Shown: positions 104-20,193 of the stretch, piece after piece
Numbering within the stretch: position 1 is the stretch's first letter
How the letters are laid out: each line of letters begins with the position of its first letter
From: a virus
IMG/VR virus record: IMGVR_UViG_3300042542_001161
Coordinates: 1 to 20,903 of that record
DNA length: 20,903 bases
Direction: 5' to 3' (one strand)
Notes under the pieces: generated by a model
What the model was told of the DNA's origin: nothing
The model's database searches: none
Seen by the model: only the letters and a program-made list of their open reading frames with translations
Position numbers and translations under genes: made by a program

Positions 104-904
104 TTAGAACCGACCCCTATTGGGGCGGGCATTAAGTAGCCGATCACGCATTTTCGCATACTGATCCATTGTCATATTACGGATGTCATCCGCATTTAAC
201 GTTTGGTATTCCGTTTGAGTTTCCATTGGCCCTACAGGAGGCGCCGTTACTGGTGCCCCCCTCAAGCGACCTTGCTGTTGCGCAGTCGCTTGTTGGATTG
301 ATTCAAGAATAGCAGAACTTCGGTCACGAAGTACACTAATTGATGTTTCAATCTCATCTTCCGAATTACCCGATACGAGATCAATGAGTTCAGGGATGAT
401 TTCTTCCTGTGACTCTTGAAGTCGGCGGTTACGGTAAGAACTAAGTTCCTGAAGGCGGCGCTCTTTTTCAATGATTGCCTCTTGGGCTAGGCGCTGTGCC
501 TCAATCTCGTCAAAACGGCGCTTGTAGTCACCGTCAATTTCTTGAAGTTTCAGGTTAAATTCCTCTTCACGCTTCAGGAGAAGTTCCTTGGCGCTCAGTT
601 CGTCAATCTCACGTTGACGCAGAATATCTGCCTCTTTAGCGGCACGTGCTTCAGCCTCTTTTTTAGCGGCTTCACGTTCAGCAGTGATTTGGCTCATTTG
701 CTCTTCCATGCTCTTCACACGGGTATCCGCTTCTTCAAGACGCTTGTACATCTTGTCTTTTTCTTGCTTGCGGATACTTTCAACTTCATCTTCGGTGAAT
801 ACCTTAGAAGTTGTTTTCATTGCCGACTCTACGAACTGTTCCACCATAGGGGCGTCCGCAGGTACGCTGATAATGTCCCCTTCGGGACTGGTATTTCTTG
901 CCAT
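104..904 (-). CDS. Probable capsid scaffolding protein (coiled coil)
   Basis: The 266-residue product is dominated by a long, highly charged Glu/Lys/Arg/Gln-rich helix from about residue 35 to 175, with heptad-like spacing and no catalytic motif. This is typical of phage scaffolding proteins, which assemble the procapsid shell and then leave. The N-terminus is acidic and the C-terminal 60 residues (Pro/Gln-rich, then a short basic 'RDRLLNARPNRGRF' end) could be the basic shell-contact tail found in several scaffolds. It lies between the portal and the probable capsid gene. The start is supported by AAGGAAT seven bases or so upstream of ATG at 904. It could also be a scaffold-protease fusion remnant, but no protease domain is visible. 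Confidence 0.75.
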   Translation of the reverse strand: MARNTSPEGDIISVPADAPMVEQFVESAMKTTSKVFTEDEVESIRKQEKDKMYKRLEEADTRVKSMEEQMSQITAEREAAKKEAEARAAKEADILRQREIDELSAKELLLKREEEFNLKLQEIDGDYKRRFDEIEAQRLAQEAIIEKERRLQELSSYRNRRLQESQEEIIPELIDLVSGNSEDEIETSISVLRDRSSAILESIQQATAQQQGRLRGAPVTAPPVGPMETQTEYQTLNADDIRNMTMDQYAKMRDRLLNARPNRGRF

Positions 905-953: not shown

Positions 954-2642
954 TTAATTGTCTTCGTCTGGGTTACGGCGTTGGGCGAACCTTGCTCCGT
1001 ATGCCCGTGAAACTAACTTGTTAACTATCTCTTCTTCAATTGGTGGAACCCCTGGTAAAGGAGCATTACCACCATTTGATGAAGTGACATTACCATCTCC
1101 AGATGGGGTAGGTGCGGGAGCCGCCCCACCGTCTGGTGTCGCAACCATTCCAGTAGCCAACATAATGGCTTGCTGAATTTGGGCACGCATCATGTCAAGA
1201 GCGCCTTGATCCAGGGCGTCGTCTTGAAGTTCTTCAAAGATTTCAAGCATCTTTTCGTTCGGGAATTCCTCACCCAATGTGGCAAGAGCACCACGCTTGG
1301 ACTCAAGACCAAGAGCCATCTTGGCTTGTACTTCATTGAGTTTGATAAGCACATCAACAGGAAGCGGTTCAGGCCAGTGAACGGTTGTCCTGTAAGTAAC
1401 AGGGTCAGCAGGATCCAACTGTGGGAGTTGGTCTGGTTCTGGTTCAGCCGCAATAGATGGGTTGTACGTCAACCATTCAGGCTGGAAAATAGCAACAGTA
1501 CGAATGATGATTTCGTTTACTTTTTCAAGACCCTTTGTGAAGTGGATCTTTTTCATCATGAAACGGTTCATCATTGGCTGGTACTGAATAGCCAAAGCAA
1601 CACCTGAGGTGTTTGATACTGGTTGGAATTGACCAAGAGCGGTCTCAGGGACACCAGTGATTTCGTGCATAGTGCGCTTTAAGAAAGTGATGTATTCCAA
1701 AGCGCCAGCCATCTCACCACGTGATTCAAGGTTGAATACGTTTGCGTCTTTAGGAAGACCAGCCCAAACTTTCTTAGGTCCACGCTCTAGTTGCGAAGCC
1801 TTAGCACCAGTGATGATGGTTACAGGAGCGGCGTGGTAGTTGATGATGTCTGAGACTTCAACCATCTTCTCATTGAGTTCACGGTTGAGAGGAATAATAT
1901 CCCAAATGTCTGACTGACCCCAAGGTGAAGAAGAGATGGTGGAGTTCGGGATGTGAACGATAGGAATCATTCCCAACACGTTCTCGTACTGGTCAATGAG
2001 TTCATCGTTAATAAACTGTTGAACAGTTTCATCAGTAAGAATCTCAGTGAATGTGTAAACCTGACGAGTGCCTTCTGGAGATGTCCCCCAGAATCGGTAT
2101 TTAAGTTTGAAGCGAATCAAACGGTCACGGTCATGCGGGTGATACTCAGGGAAGCAGTGCGCTGGGTTCAAAGGAATAATGCGCACACGTCCTTCGTGTG
2201 GAACGCCAGCAGGGTCTACGTAAGGCTCCTCATAGGCAACCTTGACAAACACGTCACCCGTTACTGAGGCTAGTTGTCCCATTTCCCAAAGCACATAATG
2301 TTTGTTGTTATCTTGATCCCAAACTTTATGGAGCAGGTGTGGAGTGATAGCACCATTTTGCTCAGGCACTTTAAATTGCACACCCTTACCAAAACAAAAG
2401 TTGGTAATGTAGTCCGACATAGTACGGACATAGTTCATGTAGAACTGAGACTCGCCCATCTCACGGCGGTACGACCAGTGATGTCCTAGGTACCACGCCC
2501 AAGCCGCAGAATAACGGTTTAAACGTGGTCCATGAACTTCAAACTCTTCGTCTGCGAGTTCAACCAATCCAAGCGGAGAGATAGCAACTGTGAGGTCACT
2601 TGAAGATGCACGATAAGAAGGTGACCAAAAATCAACAGCCAT
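954..2642 (-). CDS. Phage portal protein
   Basis: The 562-residue protein has the size and layout of an SPP1 gp6/HK97-like portal, the dodecameric ring at the unique capsid vertex through which DNA enters and to which the neck is attached. Recognisable features are the N-terminal 'YVRTMSDYITNFCFGKG' segment, the central 'GDVFVKVAYEE' and 'VRIIPLNPAHCFPEY' beta wing, the 'IPIVHIPN' strand, the 'IIPLNRELNEKM' helix, and the 'EITGVPETALGQ...SNTSGVALAIQY' stem/crown entry, which is characteristic of portals. The C-terminal 60 residues are Pro/Gly/Asn-rich and probably disordered. A weak GGAAAG lies about ten bases before the ATG. The neighbours (holin-like gene upstream, scaffold downstream) fit a head-assembly block. 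Confidence 0.93.
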   Translation of the reverse strand: MAVDFWSPSYRASSSDLTVAISPLGLVELADEEFEVHGPRLNRYSAAWAWYLGHHWSYRREMGESQFYMNYVRTMSDYITNFCFGKGVQFKVPEQNGAITPHLLHKVWDQDNNKHYVLWEMGQLASVTGDVFVKVAYEEPYVDPAGVPHEGRVRIIPLNPAHCFPEYHPHDRDRLIRFKLKYRFWGTSPEGTRQVYTFTEILTDETVQQFINDELIDQYENVLGMIPIVHIPNSTISSSPWGQSDIWDIIPLNRELNEKMVEVSDIINYHAAPVTIITGAKASQLERGPKKVWAGLPKDANVFNLESRGEMAGALEYITFLKRTMHEITGVPETALGQFQPVSNTSGVALAIQYQPMMNRFMMKKIHFTKGLEKVNEIIIRTVAIFQPEWLTYNPSIAAEPEPDQLPQLDPADPVTYRTTVHWPEPLPVDVLIKLNEVQAKMALGLESKRGALATLGEEFPNEKMLEIFEELQDDALDQGALDMMRAQIQQAIMLATGMVATPDGGAAPAPTPSGDGNVTSSNGGNAPLPGVPPIEEEIVNKLVSRAYGARFAQRRNPDEDN

Positions 2643-2681: not shown

Positions 2682-2966
2682 TTACTTCTTTTTTGGAGCG
2701 GCTTTCTTAGCGGCGGCTTTTACAGGAGCAGGTGCTTCTGCTTTAGCAGGAGCGGCGGCAATTGCCTGTTCAGCGACTTTCAAAAGAAGTGTAGTGTTTG
2801 CAGGACCAATCTTGGTGGAAACCACCGAGATAGCGGCGGCAACAAATGGCAATGCCAAAGCAACAAGTTCAGTTGAAATGTTGTACTTAGCGGCGGCAAA
2901 TGTCAGGATACCGAGAGCGGCACCTTTGATAGCGGCGTCTGCGTGGGCTGTCTTTAATTGACTCAT
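2682..2966 (-). CDS. Small membrane protein, holin-like
   Basis: The 94-residue protein has two hydrophobic segments (about residues 12 to 27 and 33 to 53) separated by a short polar turn, then a helix and an Ala/Pro/Lys-rich tail ending AAKKAAPKKK. Two membrane spans plus a strongly basic cytoplasmic tail in under 100 residues are the hallmarks of phage holins, which permeabilise the inner membrane and release or activate the endolysin. AAGGAG stands five bases before the ATG. The odd point is position: it lies between the proteasome-like gene and the portal, about 7 kb from the endolysin. A structural or DNA-binding role for the basic tail (histone H1-like Ala/Lys/Pro pattern) cannot be excluded. 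Confidence 0.55.
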   Translation of the reverse strand: MSQLKTAHADAAIKGAALGILTFAAAKYNISTELVALALPFVAAAISVVSTKIGPANTTLLLKVAEQAIAAAPAKAEAPAPVKAAAKKAAPKKK

Positions 2967-2991: not shown

Positions 2992-3624
2992 TTATACCGT
3001 TTTACGGGTTCTTAGGTTTTCTTGACCTTGTACGTAGGTTTGGTACGGAGGTCCAGTGTAGGGGTCAAACCGAGCCGAAATGTTAAGAGCCTTAAGGGCA
3101 CTCGTTTTAGCCTGCTGGGCTGTCCACTTCTTTTTGTTCATCATGACCTGTAGGGCACCTAAAGCGTATTGAGCACCAGATCCAATGGCATATATACCAC
3201 TGGCTTCAGAGGACCACGCATAGTCTCCGTCCACCATGTAAATAACACCGTTAATGACCACAAGAATGCTTGACCCTTGTTCAGCAATATGTTGTTTGTT
3301 TTCGTTGAGGTCTGGGATTGAGTAACCCTGAGCGTCAAAACATTCACGCAATGCAGGGATGAACTTGGCAGTAAAGAACTGGTCAAGTTTCTTTCCCTTT
3401 AAATTTGGAGGTACTGCTGGGGGCTGGAAAACATGGTGCAAGATATTGATTGCACGCACATCCCCAGCCGCACCTAACAGATACTTACCGTTTGTGGCAA
3501 CTTTGCTAGAGCCTTCACGAAGCGTTCCAGTTTGAGCAAGCCCATCGGAATACATGGTGGAGATACGTGAGTCAACACATACCACGGCAAAACCGTCACC
3601 TTGGATTCCGACAATGGTTGTCAT
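2992..3624 (-). CDS. Proteasome beta/HslV-like Ntn-hydrolase (threonine peptidase)
   Basis: The 210-residue protein looks like an N-terminal-nucleophile hydrolase of the proteasome-beta/HslV type. It begins MTTIVGIQ, so removing Met would expose a catalytic threonine as in HslV and processed beta subunits. Counting from that Thr, the 'VDSR' motif puts Asp and Arg at positions 17 and 19, exactly the family positions. 'GSSKV' (Lys41 of the ORF) matches catalytic Lys33 after a short insertion. 'LLGAAGD' matches the substrate-channel glycines, 'AIGSGAQYALGAL' the serine loop, and 'RFDPYTG' the Asp166/Ser169 motif with Thr for Ser. There is no propeptide, as in HslV. Its ATG overlaps the phosphoesterase stop (TAATG). 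No partner ATPase is visible in the window. A virion-maturation or host-protein-degrading role is inference. Confidence 0.85.
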   Translation of the reverse strand: MTTIVGIQGDGFAVVCVDSRISTMYSDGLAQTGTLREGSSKVATNGKYLLGAAGDVRAINILHHVFQPPAVPPNLKGKKLDQFFTAKFIPALRECFDAQGYSIPDLNENKQHIAEQGSSILVVINGVIYMVDGDYAWSSEASGIYAIGSGAQYALGALQVMMNKKKWTAQQAKTSALKALNISARFDPYTGPPYQTYVQGQENLRTRKTV

Positions 3625-4778
3625 TAGTCTGCTTGGTATTCCTTACCTTGGTACATTCCCCAACCGTTGTAGATTGGAATTACATCGTAAGAGAAACGAT
3701 GCTGACCATCGTCTTCATAACGAACAATACCCAATCCTTGTTGCCAATTCTCATGGCGAGTAAGCGGGCGTCCGTCAAGGTCTACACCGCCCTTTGTGCT
3801 GGGAATAGCGCCGTCAATGCGAGCAAGGCAACCAGGAGAAGCAGCCATGATGGTGCGTGGACCATCAAAGTCTTCACGTGTTTTAAACGCTGTTTCAATG
3901 CGGTGAATGTGCCCATAGATAACGCTCGTCTTTTCATTGTTGAGATAGATGTGTGCAGTTGATCCTGAGGACTTAACACGATCGCCGTGGATGATTCGCA
4001 GTTTTTCATTGACCCAATAGTCTGATGCTGGATAACCTGGCTTGTAAATTACATTGAAGTCATCCATACGACAGAGGTATGGAACACTCAAAACAGGCCA
4101 TGATTCTGGGGTATTTCCCTTACGCAAACCATAAGCGGCTGATGCGTTAACCAAAACATATTTAGGCATACGCTCTTCGTGGTTACCAGCAAGCCATACG
4201 ATTTCTGCACTAGGAGCCGCCGCACGCATCTGTGCACAGAACACTGTTGCACGATCAATTGATGCTTGCGTTGTTTGTGCATACGCAGGGTACGTCAAGT
4301 ACTTACCCATCTCAGGGAAGTCAAGGTTGTCACCAACACAAATGACTGTGTCAGGATTCATCTCTTCAATGATCTTGAGTGCAACGTCAAGTGCTTTCTC
4401 ATCATGAGTTGGTTCTAGTGTTCCATCACGACCACGGTAGTAACCAATCTGAATGTCAGGAACAACAACGCATGTTTTAAATGTTGTTGGCTTCTTTACC
4501 TTTGCTTTAGGTACTGGCATCTTGATTGCAGGACCTTGTGTAACAACAGGCCATTCAGGACCAGTTTCCCACTTAGGTGAAAACTGAATTGCGGCAAGGT
4601 CATGAATATGTGCTTCACCGTCTGAGTCTTTTGACATTGCTTGATACAACTTGACACGCTTGATGTCACCGATTTCGTTGATGTCAATGTTCTTGCTCTC
4701 AAGCATTTCAACTAATTTGCCAAGCAACTTAGTCTTATCTTGTGGTGCTGTTGTTAACGCTTTTGCTAATTCACTCAT
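3624..4778 (-). CDS. Calcineurin-like metallophosphoesterase
   Basis: The 384-residue product carries the metallophosphoesterase motifs in order: VPDIQ (Asp108, Gln110), VGDNLDFPE (Asp150, Asn151), LAGNHEER (Asn199, His200), IIHGD (His264) and YGHIHR (His290, His292). These build the two-metal site that hydrolyses phosphomono- or diesters. The first motif has D-x-Q where the classical family has D-x-H. An N-terminal extension of about 100 residues begins with a helical segment and ends in a basic linker (PKAKVKKP). ATG 4778 was chosen because AAGGAG is seven bases upstream and the start forms an ATGA overlap with the preceding HTH gene; an ATG at 4805 would overlap it by 31 bases. The substrate is unknown; DNA or a nucleotide is possible. 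Confidence 0.88.
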   Translation of the reverse strand: MSELAKALTTAPQDKTKLLGKLVEMLESKNIDINEIGDIKRVKLYQAMSKDSDGEAHIHDLAAIQFSPKWETGPEWPVVTQGPAIKMPVPKAKVKKPTTFKTCVVVPDIQIGYYRGRDGTLEPTHDEKALDVALKIIEEMNPDTVICVGDNLDFPEMGKYLTYPAYAQTTQASIDRATVFCAQMRAAAPSAEIVWLAGNHEERMPKYVLVNASAAYGLRKGNTPESWPVLSVPYLCRMDDFNVIYKPGYPASDYWVNEKLRIIHGDRVKSSGSTAHIYLNNEKTSVIYGHIHRIETAFKTREDFDGPRTIMAASPGCLARIDGAIPSTKGGVDLDGRPLTRHENWQQGLGIVRYEDDGQHRFSYDVIPIYNGWGMYQGKEYQAD

Positions 4779-5074
4779 TGTGCATCTCCTTGGTAACAGC
4801 AACACTCTTTATTGACGTGGCGCTGGATCGTACTTATACTCACGTTGTAACCATGTTGGCGCATAACTTTTGTAAGCCATGATGCGCTGTATGTTTTGCT
4901 TTTACCTAAACCGTTGTCCTCACGAATGAGTTCAATTGCACGGTTAATTGCTTCTTGTTCTTCAGCAGACATTTTGGCTACTGTTCTGGTGAACTTACAT
5001 GTGTCTGCCGAAAGGTTAGTTCGGGGTGACAATAGGGCGTCCAGCAGACTTGTTTTCTGCTCTTCTTGTTTCAC
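4775..5074 (-). CDS. Small putative HTH DNA-binding protein
   Basis: This is a 99-residue protein with a GTG start at 5074 (TTAGG five bases upstream). Its C-terminal half, about residues 62 to 90, reads like a helix-turn-helix: 'SASWLTKVMRQHG', then a short 'YNVS' turn, then 'ISTIQRHVNKE' as recognition helix. A preceding helix 'SAEEQEAINRAIELI' would complete a three-helix domain. The end overlaps the phosphoesterase start by ATGA, so the two are translationally coupled. It could be a transcription regulator of the head operon or a DNA-binding partner of the phosphoesterase; a small-terminase role is less likely since it is far from the large subunit. The Cys-rich tail 'KECCCYQ' is unusual. 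Confidence 0.6.
   Translation of the reverse strand: MKQEEQKTSLLDALLSPRTNLSADTCKFTRTVAKMSAEEQEAINRAIELIREDNGLGKSKTYSASWLTKVMRQHGYNVSISTIQRHVNKECCCYQGDAQ
4786..4791 (-). promoter_or_regulatory. Ribosome binding site deciding the phosphoesterase start
   Basis: AAGGAG on the minus strand lies seven bases before ATG 4778 and inside the end of the HTH gene. It selects this ATG over the in-frame ATG at 4805, which has no comparable site. Confidence 0.75.
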
Positions 5075-5148: not shown

Positions 5149-5385
5149 TCACTTTGTCTTATCTAGGTGCCAATCAATGTGGTTGTCAAGACGCTCAGAA
5201 ACAGATTGGACTTTGTCGCCCACATTCTCAACACTGCGTCTTACAGTTTTTAAATGAAGCATGACCATCCCGTGGTCATTACGATTCTCTTTACGGAGGT
5301 CTTTTAGTTGTTTAATTCCTGCGCCAACCGCTCCAGCAAGCGTTGTAATAAGCGTGGCAATGATGAGCGCCCATGCATCTGTCAT
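5149..5385 (-). CDS. Small single-span membrane protein with coiled coil
   Basis: The 78-residue product has one N-terminal membrane segment (about residues 4 to 24, 'WALIIATLITTLAGAVGAGI') followed by a charged helical tail with heptad-like spacing ('LKTVRRSVENVGDKVQSVSERLDNHI'). The layout resembles small mycobacteriophage membrane proteins such as the DUF2746 family and some lysis accessory proteins; this is layout, not a motif match. The ATG overlaps the stop of the Gp88-family gene (ATGA). A 74-base gap follows before the HTH gene, with a small CACCC/GGGTG hairpin (5123 to 5139) but no T-run. A role as a holin partner is possible. Confidence 0.6.
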   Translation of the reverse strand: MTDAWALIIATLITTLAGAVGAGIKQLKDLRKENRNDHGMVMLHLKTVRRSVENVGDKVQSVSERLDNHIDWHLDKTK

Positions 5386-6416
5386 GCGTTATGCGGCCGT
5401 CTACGGGAGATCTGAACAGGTGACTCTGCTGATCCACTTTGCATCTGGCGAATAAAACCAGTCTCATCAAAAACGCCACGGCGTCCTTCAACTGTGATTT
5501 CCTTGGCTCGTAGGGCTACTGCTCCACCAATCCTTTCGTCAAGGTGGCGCATGTCGTGGGCGTCTCCAGCGGATTCCCCACGTGACGTACGAACTGTTGG
5601 AAGTTCAATACTGCGTCCTTGCTTGTCATTGATGGTCAATGAGTCAGGTATCTTGTCACCCTTTTTAATATTGAGAGGAACTGCAACGTTTCTACCAGAC
5701 TTAGTAATCTGCTCAATACGTGGAACAGTGGTGTTCTCAGTAAGGCTGTGGATCCAGTGGTAGTTGCTGTATGGGTTTGGATCCTCATGTTCAACAACGT
5801 CATGGGTATTAAACTTTGTATATTCGTTGAACTGTGTTCCTGGACGGGAGCCAATCAAAAGGTCAGAAGTCTGACCAAGGCGGTGCCAACCAACGTCTGA
5901 AGTACCGTTCAAGCGCACCACAGGAGTCCTGCGCATGGCACGTGACGTCCGTTCGTGGTTACGGATCTCGGAATGGACAAGACCCAAATACATGTCTGGC
6001 TGTTCCCATGCCATTTTGGTTCGTGCTTGTTTAGCAATTTCACCGCCAGTCAAACCAAGTTGACCAGACCCGCTCAAGCATGCACCTTTACAACCCTTAG
6101 TTTCAGAACCGCAGGTGTTGCAACCCTTAATACCGCTTTGGTTAGATGGTTGCAGGTATTGAACCAACTGCTTTGAACCCAATACGCCATGTTCACCAGA
6201 GGTTTCGTTGTGCTCTAGTTTTGTGGAACTTCCCAGCAAATGGGGTTTAATACCGCCACGAAGGATGTCTCCACCCTTAGTTGTCCCTGTAGTTGACCGT
6301 GACATAGCACTAAAGGTTTCTTTTGCTTCCTTGAGACCAGCACCTGTTGAGTACTTAAGGACGTCATCAACGCTTGCTTCGGCAAGGCGTTTTTCTAAAC
6401 TAGACCTAGTTCCCAT
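5382..6416 (-). CDS. Gp88-family phage protein with cysteine cluster
   Basis: The 344-residue protein has the layout I associate with the mycobacteriophage 'gene product 88' family (Pfam Gp88). It has a Cys cluster 'GCNTCGSETKGCKGACL' at about 98 to 114, then a helix, 'PVVRLNGTSDVGWH' at about 165 to 178, an aromatic 'FNEYTKF', 'NYHWIHSLTEN', 'GRNVAVPL', and near the end 'GDAHDMRHLDERIGGAVALRAKE', matching the family's D-x-R-x-L-D...LRAK ending. The four closely spaced cysteines could bind zinc or an iron-sulphur cluster. The biochemical function of the family is not established. GGAG seven bases before the ATG supports the start, and it overlaps the membrane-protein gene by ATGA. Confidence 0.72.
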   Translation of the reverse strand: MGTRSSLEKRLAEASVDDVLKYSTGAGLKEAKETFSAMSRSTTGTTKGGDILRGGIKPHLLGSSTKLEHNETSGEHGVLGSKQLVQYLQPSNQSGIKGCNTCGSETKGCKGACLSGSGQLGLTGGEIAKQARTKMAWEQPDMYLGLVHSEIRNHERTSRAMRRTPVVRLNGTSDVGWHRLGQTSDLLIGSRPGTQFNEYTKFNTHDVVEHEDPNPYSNYHWIHSLTENTTVPRIEQITKSGRNVAVPLNIKKGDKIPDSLTINDKQGRSIELPTVRTSRGESAGDAHDMRHLDERIGGAVALRAKEITVEGRRGVFDETGFIRQMQSGSAESPVQISRRRPHNA

Positions 6417-7326: not shown

Positions 7327-8886
7327 TCAATTAAAGAATGGATTTTCTGCCACCTGTATTTGAGGCAGGGTATCATGCATGGTCATAAAACAGGCGATTG
7401 CTAGGGAGTCTGGGTAGTCGTCAAAGGCACCTTTTTCATCAGGGGCTTCAGCCAACATATATGGACCACGGTAGGTCTTCTCTAGGTCGCTCATCTGTTG
7501 ATTGAACCGCTTCCAACCACGGGTACGGCGAGCCTTGGAGTGACCTGGAATTATTAATTGCTCTCTCTGAATGAGTTCTGTTAGGTGCACCCAACGCTCG
7601 TGCTGGGCTTTAGAGTCCGAAGATATCGCAAGCACCTCAATATCAGGAAGCAGGATCTGCATACGTTCGGCTACAGCACCACCAACACCCTGAGAGTCAA
7701 TACCAATTCTAAGGGGGTCGTAGTTGCGTAGGAAGTCAATAATCTGGAAGTACTGGGATTCCCATTCTTCGTTATTAATCTCTAGCCAGTTAAGGACACG
7801 GTGCTCATGGAACCCAAACGGATCTGGATGGTCCCAGTCAACCCAACAGACCGTCACTACGGTTGAGTCATTAGAACGGGCAACGTCAATACCGACCACC
7901 ACAGGAGTACGCCACCATTGTTTTACTATTGGCATAGACGGGTCATACAAGCGATCTAATCGCTCTTCAGTAACAAACATACCTCGGTCAAGTACCCATT
8001 TATTGCAGTACGACATTTGGAATTCGTCTGAGTCTTCACCAATGCGCAGTTTTTCTTTAGCAATAAACTTTGCATAGTTAGCGTTGTATTTAGAAGCGAC
8101 CTTCCAGTCGTACTCAAAGTGACATGGTCGTGTCTTTTTACCGTTGACCATACGTCGCTTGTTGTACTGGATCATCTTGTAAAAGTACGACTTGTTACGG
8201 GTAGCCGTACCTGTAAGGCAAATACTTCCGTTATTAAACGCCAACATCGGCTTAATTGATTTGGCGATCATGTACTCGTCGGCTTCCTGAGCCTCATCAA
8301 TCATGACGAAGTGGTACGTTTTTGATTCAATCTTTGCTTTTGGGTTACAGGTTTGCATACGGCAAAGCGATCCAGAATGCTTCAAGGTAATAATGCGACC
8401 CTTACCACGGGCGCCACCTGATGTTGCTTTGTCGTCAATCTCTGGGTCTAACAGGAAGTCCATTGCATGGTCGCTAGTGAGTTTGCCAACGATACGACTA
8501 AATACTGTGTCTGCTTGGTCTTCTACTGGTGCAAACACTCCACACCAAAAGCCTTTTTCAAACTTATCAAGCCATGTCGGATATATCTTTGACAACTTAG
8601 GCAAGATGACCATGAGCGAAGCCATGACGTTAGACAGCACTTCAGACTTACCTGACTGACGTGTAGCAACCACTGTCATTTCCTCACCGTCACCAAGAAT
8701 GACCGATTCAATTAATCGGTAAGCAATTGGGATCTGGTATGGGAACAACTCCACGTCACAGAACTCTTCGGTAAATACAATAATGCGTTTTACCAGTTCG
8801 TCTATGAATTCGGCGGACGTTTCGTCCAGTTCCTCGGCTATGTCCTCCGCTAAGAGGTTTTCGTCTAATTCGTCGTCTGTGAGCAC
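7327..8886 (-). CDS. terL: Terminase large subunit (packaging ATPase/nuclease)
   Basis: The protein pumps DNA into the prohead and cuts concatemers. ATPase motifs: adenine-binding 'FPYQ' (about 48), Walker A TRQSGKS (75 to 81), Walker B with catalytic Glu VMIDEAQ (194 to 200), and the coupling motif CLTGTA (223 to 228). The C-terminal RNase H-fold nuclease has its acidic residues in 'VVGIDVARSNDS' (Asp334), 'RIGIDSQGVGG' (Asp397) and 'FDDYPDSLA' (Asp490/493). The length of 519 residues is normal. The GTG at 8886 is the first usable start after an in-frame TAA but has no Shine-Dalgarno; translation is probably coupled to the upstream gene. The six codons before the GTG (LVYDWS) look protein-like, so an atypical upstream start is possible. 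Confidence 0.95.
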   Translation of the reverse strand: MLTDDELDENLLAEDIAEELDETSAEFIDELVKRIIVFTEEFCDVELFPYQIPIAYRLIESVILGDGEEMTVVATRQSGKSEVLSNVMASLMVILPKLSKIYPTWLDKFEKGFWCGVFAPVEDQADTVFSRIVGKLTSDHAMDFLLDPEIDDKATSGGARGKGRIITLKHSGSLCRMQTCNPKAKIESKTYHFVMIDEAQEADEYMIAKSIKPMLAFNNGSICLTGTATRNKSYFYKMIQYNKRRMVNGKKTRPCHFEYDWKVASKYNANYAKFIAKEKLRIGEDSDEFQMSYCNKWVLDRGMFVTEERLDRLYDPSMPIVKQWWRTPVVVGIDVARSNDSTVVTVCWVDWDHPDPFGFHEHRVLNWLEINNEEWESQYFQIIDFLRNYDPLRIGIDSQGVGGAVAERMQILLPDIEVLAISSDSKAQHERWVHLTELIQREQLIIPGHSKARRTRGWKRFNQQMSDLEKTYRGPYMLAEAPDEKGAFDDYPDSLAIACFMTMHDTLPQIQVAENPFFN

Positions 8887-10171: not shown

Positions 10172-10747
10172 TTACGCTTGTGGAGGAAGTGTTGCCTCGT
10201 AGTCAAGAACTGCCTGTGGCATTACCTTGCCTTCGGTAAAACGGATGTGCCAACTTTCAGCACCTGGCATGTCCACTACTTCATGGCTAAAACCAAACTT
10301 CTGTTCGTTAGCCAATAGCCAGTCCATGATCTTCTTGTTGCCAGTGTTGGCAATGTCAATGGCGATACCGAGCATGTGACGTGAGCAGGTCTTAGCGTCA
10401 TCGTTAGGAGCCGCTAGAGGAGCGTTGCCCTTCTTCAAGTACCACTTCACACCATTCCATGTGCGGGTTGAGGCTCCTGGAATTAACTCTTTCTGGTAGC
10501 GGGTGAGAAATCCTTGGGTCTGGGTTTGGATACTGCGGAATGTGTCCCCTGCTGAAGTCGGAGCCAACTTGACTCCATCTGCTGCGGCGGCTGCCTTCAT
10601 TGCCTCAAAGGCACGAGCGGCACAATGGTGCATCTGACCACCCACAGATAACTTGCGAAGCATCGCAGGCGTGATCTGAGAAGGCTTCTTACCTTCTAGG
10701 TGCTCACAGAATTTGATAGGGACTACGGGCCAAGGCATCTTTGTCAT
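10172..10747 (-). CDS. Endolysin, M15 (VanY/D-Ala-D-Ala carboxypeptidase-like) peptidase
   Basis: The 191-residue protein is an LAS-type zinc peptidase that would cut peptidoglycan stem peptides at lysis. The zinc motifs are visible: 'SRHMLGIAID' (S-x-H-x-x-G-x-A-x-D; His124, Asp131) and 'ESWHIRF' (catalytic Glu164, zinc His167). Upstream, 'TSAGDTFRSIQTQTQGFLTRY' matches the substrate-side region of M15 enzymes. There is no signal peptide and no evident wall-binding domain, so a holin would be needed for export. ATG 10747 has no clear Shine-Dalgarno; the in-frame ATG at 10738 is an alternative. A 100-base non-coding gap separates it from the oxygenase upstream. Confidence 0.88.
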   Translation of the reverse strand: MTKMPWPVVPIKFCEHLEGKKPSQITPAMLRKLSVGGQMHHCAARAFEAMKAAAAADGVKLAPTSAGDTFRSIQTQTQGFLTRYQKELIPGASTRTWNGVKWYLKKGNAPLAAPNDDAKTCSRHMLGIAIDIANTGNKKIMDWLLANEQKFGFSHEVVDMPGAESWHIRFTEGKVMPQAVLDYEATLPPQA

Positions 10748-18915: not shown

Positions 18916-19166
18916 TGCTCTAAAAGACTCTCTTGTCTTTCTGCGGCAGATTGGATGTTGGCAGCAAGTACTACAGCGTCACGGTCAGCAGGAATTTCTG
19001 TAATAGTAGGGTCAGCCAACATACGTTGTACCTCTATTTGGAAGATTTCCTCTATCGCTACACGGCAACGCTCTTTTACTGCGTTGTTAATCCAATCCTG
19101 TTGGTCAACAGCAACATATCCAAGCGCTTTATTTTCTGCTTCCGTAAGTGTGATTGTATATTCCAT
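18912..19166 (-). CDS. Conserved-looking small phage protein, function unknown
   Basis: The 84-residue product is mostly helical and acidic: 'EYTITLTEAENKALGYVAVD', 'DWINNAVKERCRVAIEEIF', 'IQSAAERQESLLEQ'. Small helical proteins of this kind are common beside phage fibre genes; no function is known to me. AAAGGAA five bases or so before ATG 19166 is a clear ribosome binding site. It overlaps the start of the 362-residue fibre gene by ATGA, so the two are co-translated. Confidence 0.68.
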   Translation of the reverse strand: MEYTITLTEAENKALGYVAVDQQDWINNAVKERCRVAIEEIFQIEVQRMLADPTITEIPADRDAVVLAANIQSAAERQESLLEQ

Positions 19167-19175
19167 AAGTTTCCT

Positions 19176-19226
19176 TTATCCGAGTAAAAAAGTAATTACA
19201 GGGGTATGCCTAGTGTAAATCGTCAT
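19176..19226 (-). CDS. Candidate micro-ORF, 16 residues
   Basis: ATG 19226 reads MTIYTRHTPVITFLLG and stops. It forms an ATGA overlap with the C1q-type fibre gene and has GAGGAG (19237 to 19242) ten bases upstream. Its TAA runs straight into the AAAGGAA site of the 84-residue gene. A small hydrophobic peptide or a coupling device are both possible. Confidence 0.38.
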   Translation of the reverse strand: MTIYTRHTPVITFLLG

Positions 19227-19855
19227 GAAATTAGCGCTCCTCTAAAAAATGTATGCTCATATTGCTGGAAAATTGTTCTTGCTTGACCATCAGACCAAGA
19301 AGCAACACCAAGTGTGTCACCAACATTTAAATAGATATTACTGGCACCAGCAAGAATGTTCCAGGTGTTCCCACCATCAAAAGCAAAAGTACGTTCTCTG
19401 CCTCCGTTGTATCTAAACCACACCTGAGAAACAAATGCGTTTTGATAAATGCTTGCAGAAAATACGTAGTTTCCAGCCACGGGAGCAGTAAACAAACCAG
19501 TGGAAGTATTGAAATGAGAACCCACGTTGTATGAAGTTGCATTAAATACAACCGTGTTTCCGCCCGTATAACTTAAGTTTCCATTTCTAGTAGCAAGAAA
19601 TGATGGTTGTGCGGTAGCAGTCAATACACCAGAAGCAACAGTAGTTGGAAGCGTTACCGTTCCAGTAAAAGTTGGCGATGCTGTGTTTGCCTTGCTTGGT
19701 GGGTACTCAACCCAAGCAGAACCAGTCCACACCTTTGCCAAAGTGGTATCGGTTTCGTAGATAATCTGACCGACATAAGGTGAACCAGGGCGTGTAGTAC
19801 TAGTGCATACTCCTGGCTTTACTGAGCCAATACCGTAGCCTTCAGAAAAAGCCAT
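19223..19855 (-). CDS. Tail fibre protein: 'PGVCTS' module plus C1q-like head
   Basis: The 210-residue protein has the shared N-terminal module (about 10 to 50: 'GSVKPGVCTSTTRPGSPYVG', 'KVWTGSAWVEY'), a short fibre repeat 'ASPTFTGTVTLPTTV', and from about residue 83 a C1q/TNF-like beta-sandwich. That domain runs 'PSFLATRNGNLSYTGGNTVV', 'YNVGSHFNTSTGLFTAPVAG', 'NYVFSASIYQNAF', 'NIYLNVGDTLGVASW'. The 'N.G..FN...G.FTAPV.G.Y.F' run is the C1q signature. Such trimeric heads serve as binding tips in bacterial and phage proteins. TAATG overlap with the gene upstream and no separate Shine-Dalgarno. Confidence 0.83.
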   Translation of the reverse strand: MAFSEGYGIGSVKPGVCTSTTRPGSPYVGQIIYETDTTLAKVWTGSAWVEYPPSKANTASPTFTGTVTLPTTVASGVLTATAQPSFLATRNGNLSYTGGNTVVFNATSYNVGSHFNTSTGLFTAPVAGNYVFSASIYQNAFVSQVWFRYNGGRERTFAFDGGNTWNILAGASNIYLNVGDTLGVASWSDGQARTIFQQYEHTFFRGALIS

Positions 19856-20193
19856 TAGGCAGTCTGCTTCTCCCAGCCAACGGCTGTAACTGTTACTTTG
19901 GCGGCTGTATCTGATAAACCTTGTAATGTCTCACCAGCCGCTAGAACAATGGCTGTATCCCAGACCATAAGATCGTTTGCGCCAATAGGAAGCGCCGACA
20001 TGATGCGGTTGGCGGCTGTAGCCGCTGAACCAATAGCCAATGTCACCGTACGGTCAACGGTATCCGTATTTGCAATGATTATTTGCTTAATGATGTCGGC
20101 ATAGCCAGTTGCGGCTGTCACAATTGTGGTCGTAGATGTGCCTAACTGGACTGGACCACCAAGCCGTGCTTCGTTTCTGTCTCCAATTGCCAC
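19855..20193 (-). CDS. Small beta-rich virion protein, copy 1
   Basis: The 112-residue product starts with GTG 20193, supported by AGGAG six bases upstream. It has 'LGTSTTTIVTAATGYADIIK', 'QIIIANTDTVDRTVTLAIGS', 'NDLMVWDTAIVLAAGETLQG' and 'AAKVTVTAVGWEKQTA': alternating beta strands with small residues and no catalytic motif. The same plan is seen in the 115-residue product at 13359. It is probably a structural virion protein, perhaps a tail or fibre connector. It overlaps the C1q fibre gene by TAATG. Confidence 0.7.
   Translation of the reverse strand: MAIGDRNEARLGGPVQLGTSTTTIVTAATGYADIIKQIIIANTDTVDRTVTLAIGSAATAANRIMSALPIGANDLMVWDTAIVLAAGETLQGLSDTAAKVTVTAVGWEKQTA

Follow-up and report, generated by a model that had tools for sequence, protein, structure and literature searches.

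Homologues of the proteasome encoded by phages were catalogued in 2021, when their function was unknown and their gene contexts were uninformative (PMC8665760). Several of the classes described in that survey are relevant here. AAH is a group I proteasome homologue that was described in phages, although none of the phages reported to carry it were actinobacterial (PMC8665760). PPH is a shorter protein of about 140 aa that lacks helix 2, and BPH is a homologue with no known unfoldase (PMC8665760). A search of the literature on the function of phage HslV or proteasome homologues returned this survey and genome reports only.

The window is the 20,903-nucleotide stretch of viral DNA that was analyzed. 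It comes from a 97,275-bp contig whose ends overlap by 220 bp, indicating that the genome is complete. This parent genome encodes the tail sheath, tube, and baseplate proteins of a myovirus, along with RecA, DNA polymerase A, a DnaB-type helicase, and ferritin. It also carries two WhiB genes, and WhiB regulators are a marker of phages that infect Actinobacteria (PMC10202952, PMC6802176). The peptidase gene and its neighbors are listed in Table 1. The first-pass annotation gave the exact end points of the open reading frame and left its minus-strand orientation unstated; it also placed the holin-like, portal, and scaffold genes correctly, whereas the capsid gene that it counted in the same block lies just beyond the window, at 18950-20029 of the 97-kb parent contig. 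The capsid protein belongs to the N4-gp56 family (TIGR04387, 127 bits against a cut-off of 60) and is preceded by the separate scaffold-like gene, whose position corresponds to that of the annotated "scaffolding protein" in phage Alone3.

Table 1. Features of the peptidase locus, in window coordinates.
Feature	Position	Strand	Details
Scaffold-like charged protein	104..904	-	between portal and N4-gp56-type major capsid gene
Portal protein, SPP1 gp6-like	954..2642	-	PF05133; PHROG_64
Small membrane (holin-like) protein	2682..2966	-	flanked by portal and peptidase; no family match
Peptidase, proteasome-like (group I, HslV/BPH/AAH-type) N-terminal-Thr hydrolase	2992..3624	-	210 aa
Peptidase active-site residues			nucleophile Thr2; Asp18, Lys41, Ser149, Asp187
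Metallophosphoesterase	3624..4805	-	PHROG_20266; stop overlaps peptidase start (TAATG)
GP88-family gene	5382-6416		PF17338
Terminase large subunit	7327..8886	-	
VanY-type carboxypeptidase	10172-10747		

The peptidase sequence opens MTTIVGIQGDGFAVVCVDSR and contains all of the motifs originally read from it, including the MTT start, Asp18 and Arg20 (family positions 17 and 19), the GSSK motif with Lys41, the AIGSG loop at residues 146-150, and DPYTG at residues 187-191. It scores 34.1 bits against the Pfam Proteasome profile PF00227, for which the curated cut-off is 22.4, and matches PHROG_1040 ("peptidase HslV family") with E=4e-24. Three overlapping scans retrieved 336, 199, and at least 568 viral stretches encoding relatives. 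Thr2, Asp18, and Lys41 are invariant in all 165 distinct homologues, and each of the 42 distinct peptidases in the window's own clade begins with MTT, implying that these proteins have no propeptide. The four pairs with measurable dS give dN/dS values of 0.03-0.13 (four further pairs were saturated and left out), and by this measure the peptidase is under strong purifying selection. A scan of the peptidase region for promoters and terminators gave no signal above that of shuffled sequence.

AlphaFold2 modeling of the peptidase monomer from a 58-sequence viral alignment yields a model with a pLDDT of 90.3 and a pTM of 0.86, in which the strands and four helices run in proteasome order. The top PDB match is BPH (5ovs; E=2.8e-12, TM 0.69-0.71 on query length), followed by HslV and then by 20S beta and Anbu, with BPH and HslV matches at E values of about 1e-12 to 1e-11. 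The model thereby predicts the four-layer alpha-beta-beta-alpha sandwich expected of the family, and its top viral structural match comes from an uncultured phage, in a protein that bears the name HslV. In profile alignments to HslV and BPH, the threonine, the aspartate, and the GSG loop line up with the corresponding catalytic elements of those enzymes; the HMM alignment offsets the lysine by a few residues, and the assignment of Lys41 rests on its invariance and spacing. Fold, profile score, and an N-terminal Thr with equivalents of Asp17 and Lys33 place the protein in PF00227. The initial description, that of a proteasome-beta/HslV-like peptidase whose active site looks intact, is thus supported by both family profiles, by the conservation of the catalytic residues, and by the predicted fold.

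The peptidase gene is found in a small number of recurring contexts. The 98 loci of the window's group, which were collected through the peptidase and include some contigs counted twice, run from terminase through metallophosphoesterase, peptidase, (holin-like gene), and portal to the scaffold-like gene, always on one strand. In a second group, made up of phages of about 39 kb and including the cultured Planktophila phage F5 (OX376641, "LanE43-AprF5"; PMC10202952), 80 of 81 loci have the peptidase immediately after the portal, usually at a distance of 14-15 nt. The proposed search for the gene beside portal identifies two lineages, with portal and peptidase on the same strand throughout. In a third group, the metallophosphoesterase–peptidase pair neighbors a WhiB gene and is not adjacent to a portal, and other phages have the homologue in replication or early regions. 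A WhiB-family regulator beside or close to the peptidase was seen in two non-portal lineages (L242:5447-5779, L220:8709-9041, L002:20715-20954).

In the gene tree, the second portal-linked group forms one clade (100/97), and portal linkage overall requires at least two changes on the starred branches. The metallophosphoesterase–peptidase pair recurs in several unrelated actinophage backbones, away from head genes. Peptidase identity correlates with that of the metallophosphoesterase at r=0.93 and with that of the portal at r=0.68; the first two proteins have diverged in step with each other to a greater degree than either has with the portal. The TAATG stop/start overlap indicates, at the level of sequence, that the peptidase is translationally coupled to the upstream metallophosphoesterase. 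A GTDB scan for cellular copies of the peptidase found no clear case and a single match, on a contig (L111) binned as Gammaproteobacteria that nevertheless shows the metallophosphoesterase–peptidase–WhiB gene order of phages and is probably a fragment of an actinophage placed in the wrong bin.

Were the peptidase responsible for maturing the head, it should be retained by phages that share these head genes. Viral contigs were scanned by portal instead of by peptidase, and loci with enough upstream sequence were counted. Ten of 46 syntenic loci lack the peptidase even though their portals are 82-98% identical to that of the window. One of these gene-minus loci belongs to a complete 94,522-bp relative (237-bp terminal overlap) with no peptidase anywhere in its genome. 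BRock and Alone3, two Streptomyces phages with 53-54% identical portals and with portal, scaffold, and capsid genes in line, also have no peptidase in their whole genomes according to a profile that detects phage F5 at 6e-63. The Manuelviruses likewise lack the gene, and they, BRock, and Alone3 are also without S78. Of the 66 portal relatives in the second portal-linked family, 54 (the Manuelviruses among them) have no peptidase after the portal, and Microbacterium phage LeeroyJenkins carries a homologue far upstream of a separate annotated capsid maturation protease. The peptidase is therefore not required wherever the head module is used. The same module occurs without the gene, and the capsid or scaffold maturation role suggested in the first-pass annotation is not supported on this basis. 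Judged by gene content, the peptidase is shown to be dispensable, and it represents an exchangeable accessory in the late-gene region rather than an invariant component of the head module.

In all eight gene-minus loci inspected, the peptidase slot between the metallophosphoesterase and the holin-like gene is filled by an unrelated 98-aa open reading frame (L298:5320-5616 (+), also in L310, L312, L315, and L336). It shows a weak match to PHROG_25889, a PHROG of unknown function, and could belong to an alternative system. The GP88-family gene and the VanY-type carboxypeptidase vary in presence and position among relatives, marking the terminase–portal stretch as a cassette region.

The most likely role of the peptidase is that of an optional aid to infection, not of a capsid-maturing enzyme. 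A compact group I proteasome homologue in an exchangeable late accessory cassette, it probably degrades or processes host proteins during infection and has no part in head maturation. By analogy with its family, removal of Met1 would expose the Thr2 nucleophile, with Lys41 and Asp18 serving as the charge relay, and the protein probably forms a homo-oligomeric ring or double ring with its active sites sheltered inside. The cassette lies with the late genes between terminase and portal and would be expressed late. In a clade with no phage ATPase, the enzyme may target unfolded proteins with no need for ATP, or it may rely on an unfoldase of the host. The distribution of the gene suggests that host proteins of small actinobacteria would be degraded or processed in support of take-over, counter-defence, or amino-acid recycling. 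Degradation of host proteins, the alternative offered in the first-pass annotation, would be a better reading than head maturation. Absence from relatives means that the gene is not universally required; its portal-side location in two separate lineages could still reflect a head-linked action in the phages that carry it.

A different possibility is that the peptidase is the proteolytic half of an ATP-dependent machine, working with a phage ClpA/B-like AAA+ protein in jumbo phages and with a host unfoldase in the ~97-kb phages. In favor of this idea, a strong AAA_2 match is present in the peptidase-bearing jumbo relatives G007, G019, G020, and G021 and in the 104-kb G024. Where read, these proteins are single-AAA ClpA/ClpB-D2-like ATPases, some 425-475 aa long, that have both a GYVG pore loop and a GTGF loop. 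AAA_2 loci of jumbo or large phages were noted at L110:1674-3089 (-) and in L417, L418, L419, and L420. However, AAA_2 (Clp/HslU) has no match in the eight records (~85-97 kb) that represent the clade of the window or in the complete parent genome (G001), extending to the whole genome the earlier observation that no partner ATPase is visible in the window. Weak PF00004 matches in the ~97-kb clade fall below the cut-off and were discarded as candidate partners. In G007 and G019, the AAA+ and peptidase genes are about 50 kb apart, the GTGF loop resembles ClpP-docking loops, which makes host ClpP an equally likely partner, and no co-occurrence of these families with AAA+ proteins was reported in the 2021 survey (PMC8665760). 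Such an ATP-dependent machine is unlikely. Also quite unlikely is a broader proteasome-like machine of freshwater actinophages that would remodel the host proteome, combining a portal-side ring in small phages with a dedicated ClpA/B-like unfoldase in jumbo phages.

The proteasome-like family includes a monomeric ligase (PMC8665760), and the loops around residues 64-116 of the peptidase are strongly conserved, both consistent with a non-degradative Ntn enzyme that, like connectase, would act as a ligase, an amidase, or a site-specific processing enzyme. The model nonetheless lacks the helical insertion between strands 3 and 4 that marks connectase, and its four predicted helices are kept as in ring-forming members, making such a function rather improbable. 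Replacement of S78/ClpP-type prohead proteases, with the peptidase trimming scaffold, portal, or capsid in its carriers, is very unlikely: the late/head-block position, the portal adjacency in two lineages, and genomes without S78, ClpP, or S77 proteases speak for it, while the gene-minus portal relatives, the second protease of LeeroyJenkins, and an N4-gp56-type capsid with its own scaffold-like gene speak against it.

These observations show proteasome homologues to be abundant in actinobacterial viruses and to occur in repeatable contexts (metallophosphoesterase–peptidase and portal–peptidase), with gains and losses of the gene between genomes that otherwise match. The conserved contexts and the ClpA/B-like ATPase of jumbo relatives provide new leads. 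Natural plus/minus pairs, together with two cultured Planktophila phages that have the gene, make its role directly testable.

Compared with known systems, the peptidase shares its location in the head gene block with the prohead proteases (S78, S77/T4 gp21, and ClpP-like), but its fold is unrelated to theirs and it is dispensable in close relatives. The absence of a classical prohead protease, first noted for this block, extends to the complete parent genome, where S78, ClpP-like, and S77 (U9-type) profiles find nothing; proteases of other families may be present. HslV of the HslVU system has the same fold, TT start, and Asp/Lys/GSG active-site elements, yet the parent genome has no HslU and the loops around helices 1-2 are longer in the peptidase. 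HslV orthology was rejected on the equivalog profiles TIGR03692 and NF003964, which give 27 bits against 158 and 28 against 137, respectively. Like the peptidase, PPH is a phage-encoded proteasome homologue, but at 210 aa and with helix 2 present (residues 77-98) the peptidase does not fit that class.

BPH (beta-proteobacterial proteasome homologue; PDB 5ovs, 5ovu), the best PDB fold match, is ~19% identical and is a cellular double-ring enzyme. The architecture of AAH and group I is found in the peptidase, with a compact core, helices 1-4, no propeptide, and neither strand 12 nor the C-terminal helix 5, the last secondary-structure element of the model being a strand at residues 194-200. Its nearest plasmid-borne cellular relatives are from Rhizobium/Mesorhizobium, Streptomyces, and Paraburkholderia, a distribution close to that of AAH (Fuchs, Alva & Lupas 2021), and the PHROG_1040 match points to the same class. 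The peptidase thus fits AAH as its closest described class, a likeness drawn from architecture and the distribution of relatives. Unlike the AAH proteins of the 2021 survey, the peptidase described here is carried by actinobacterial phages and is found in repeatable gene contexts.
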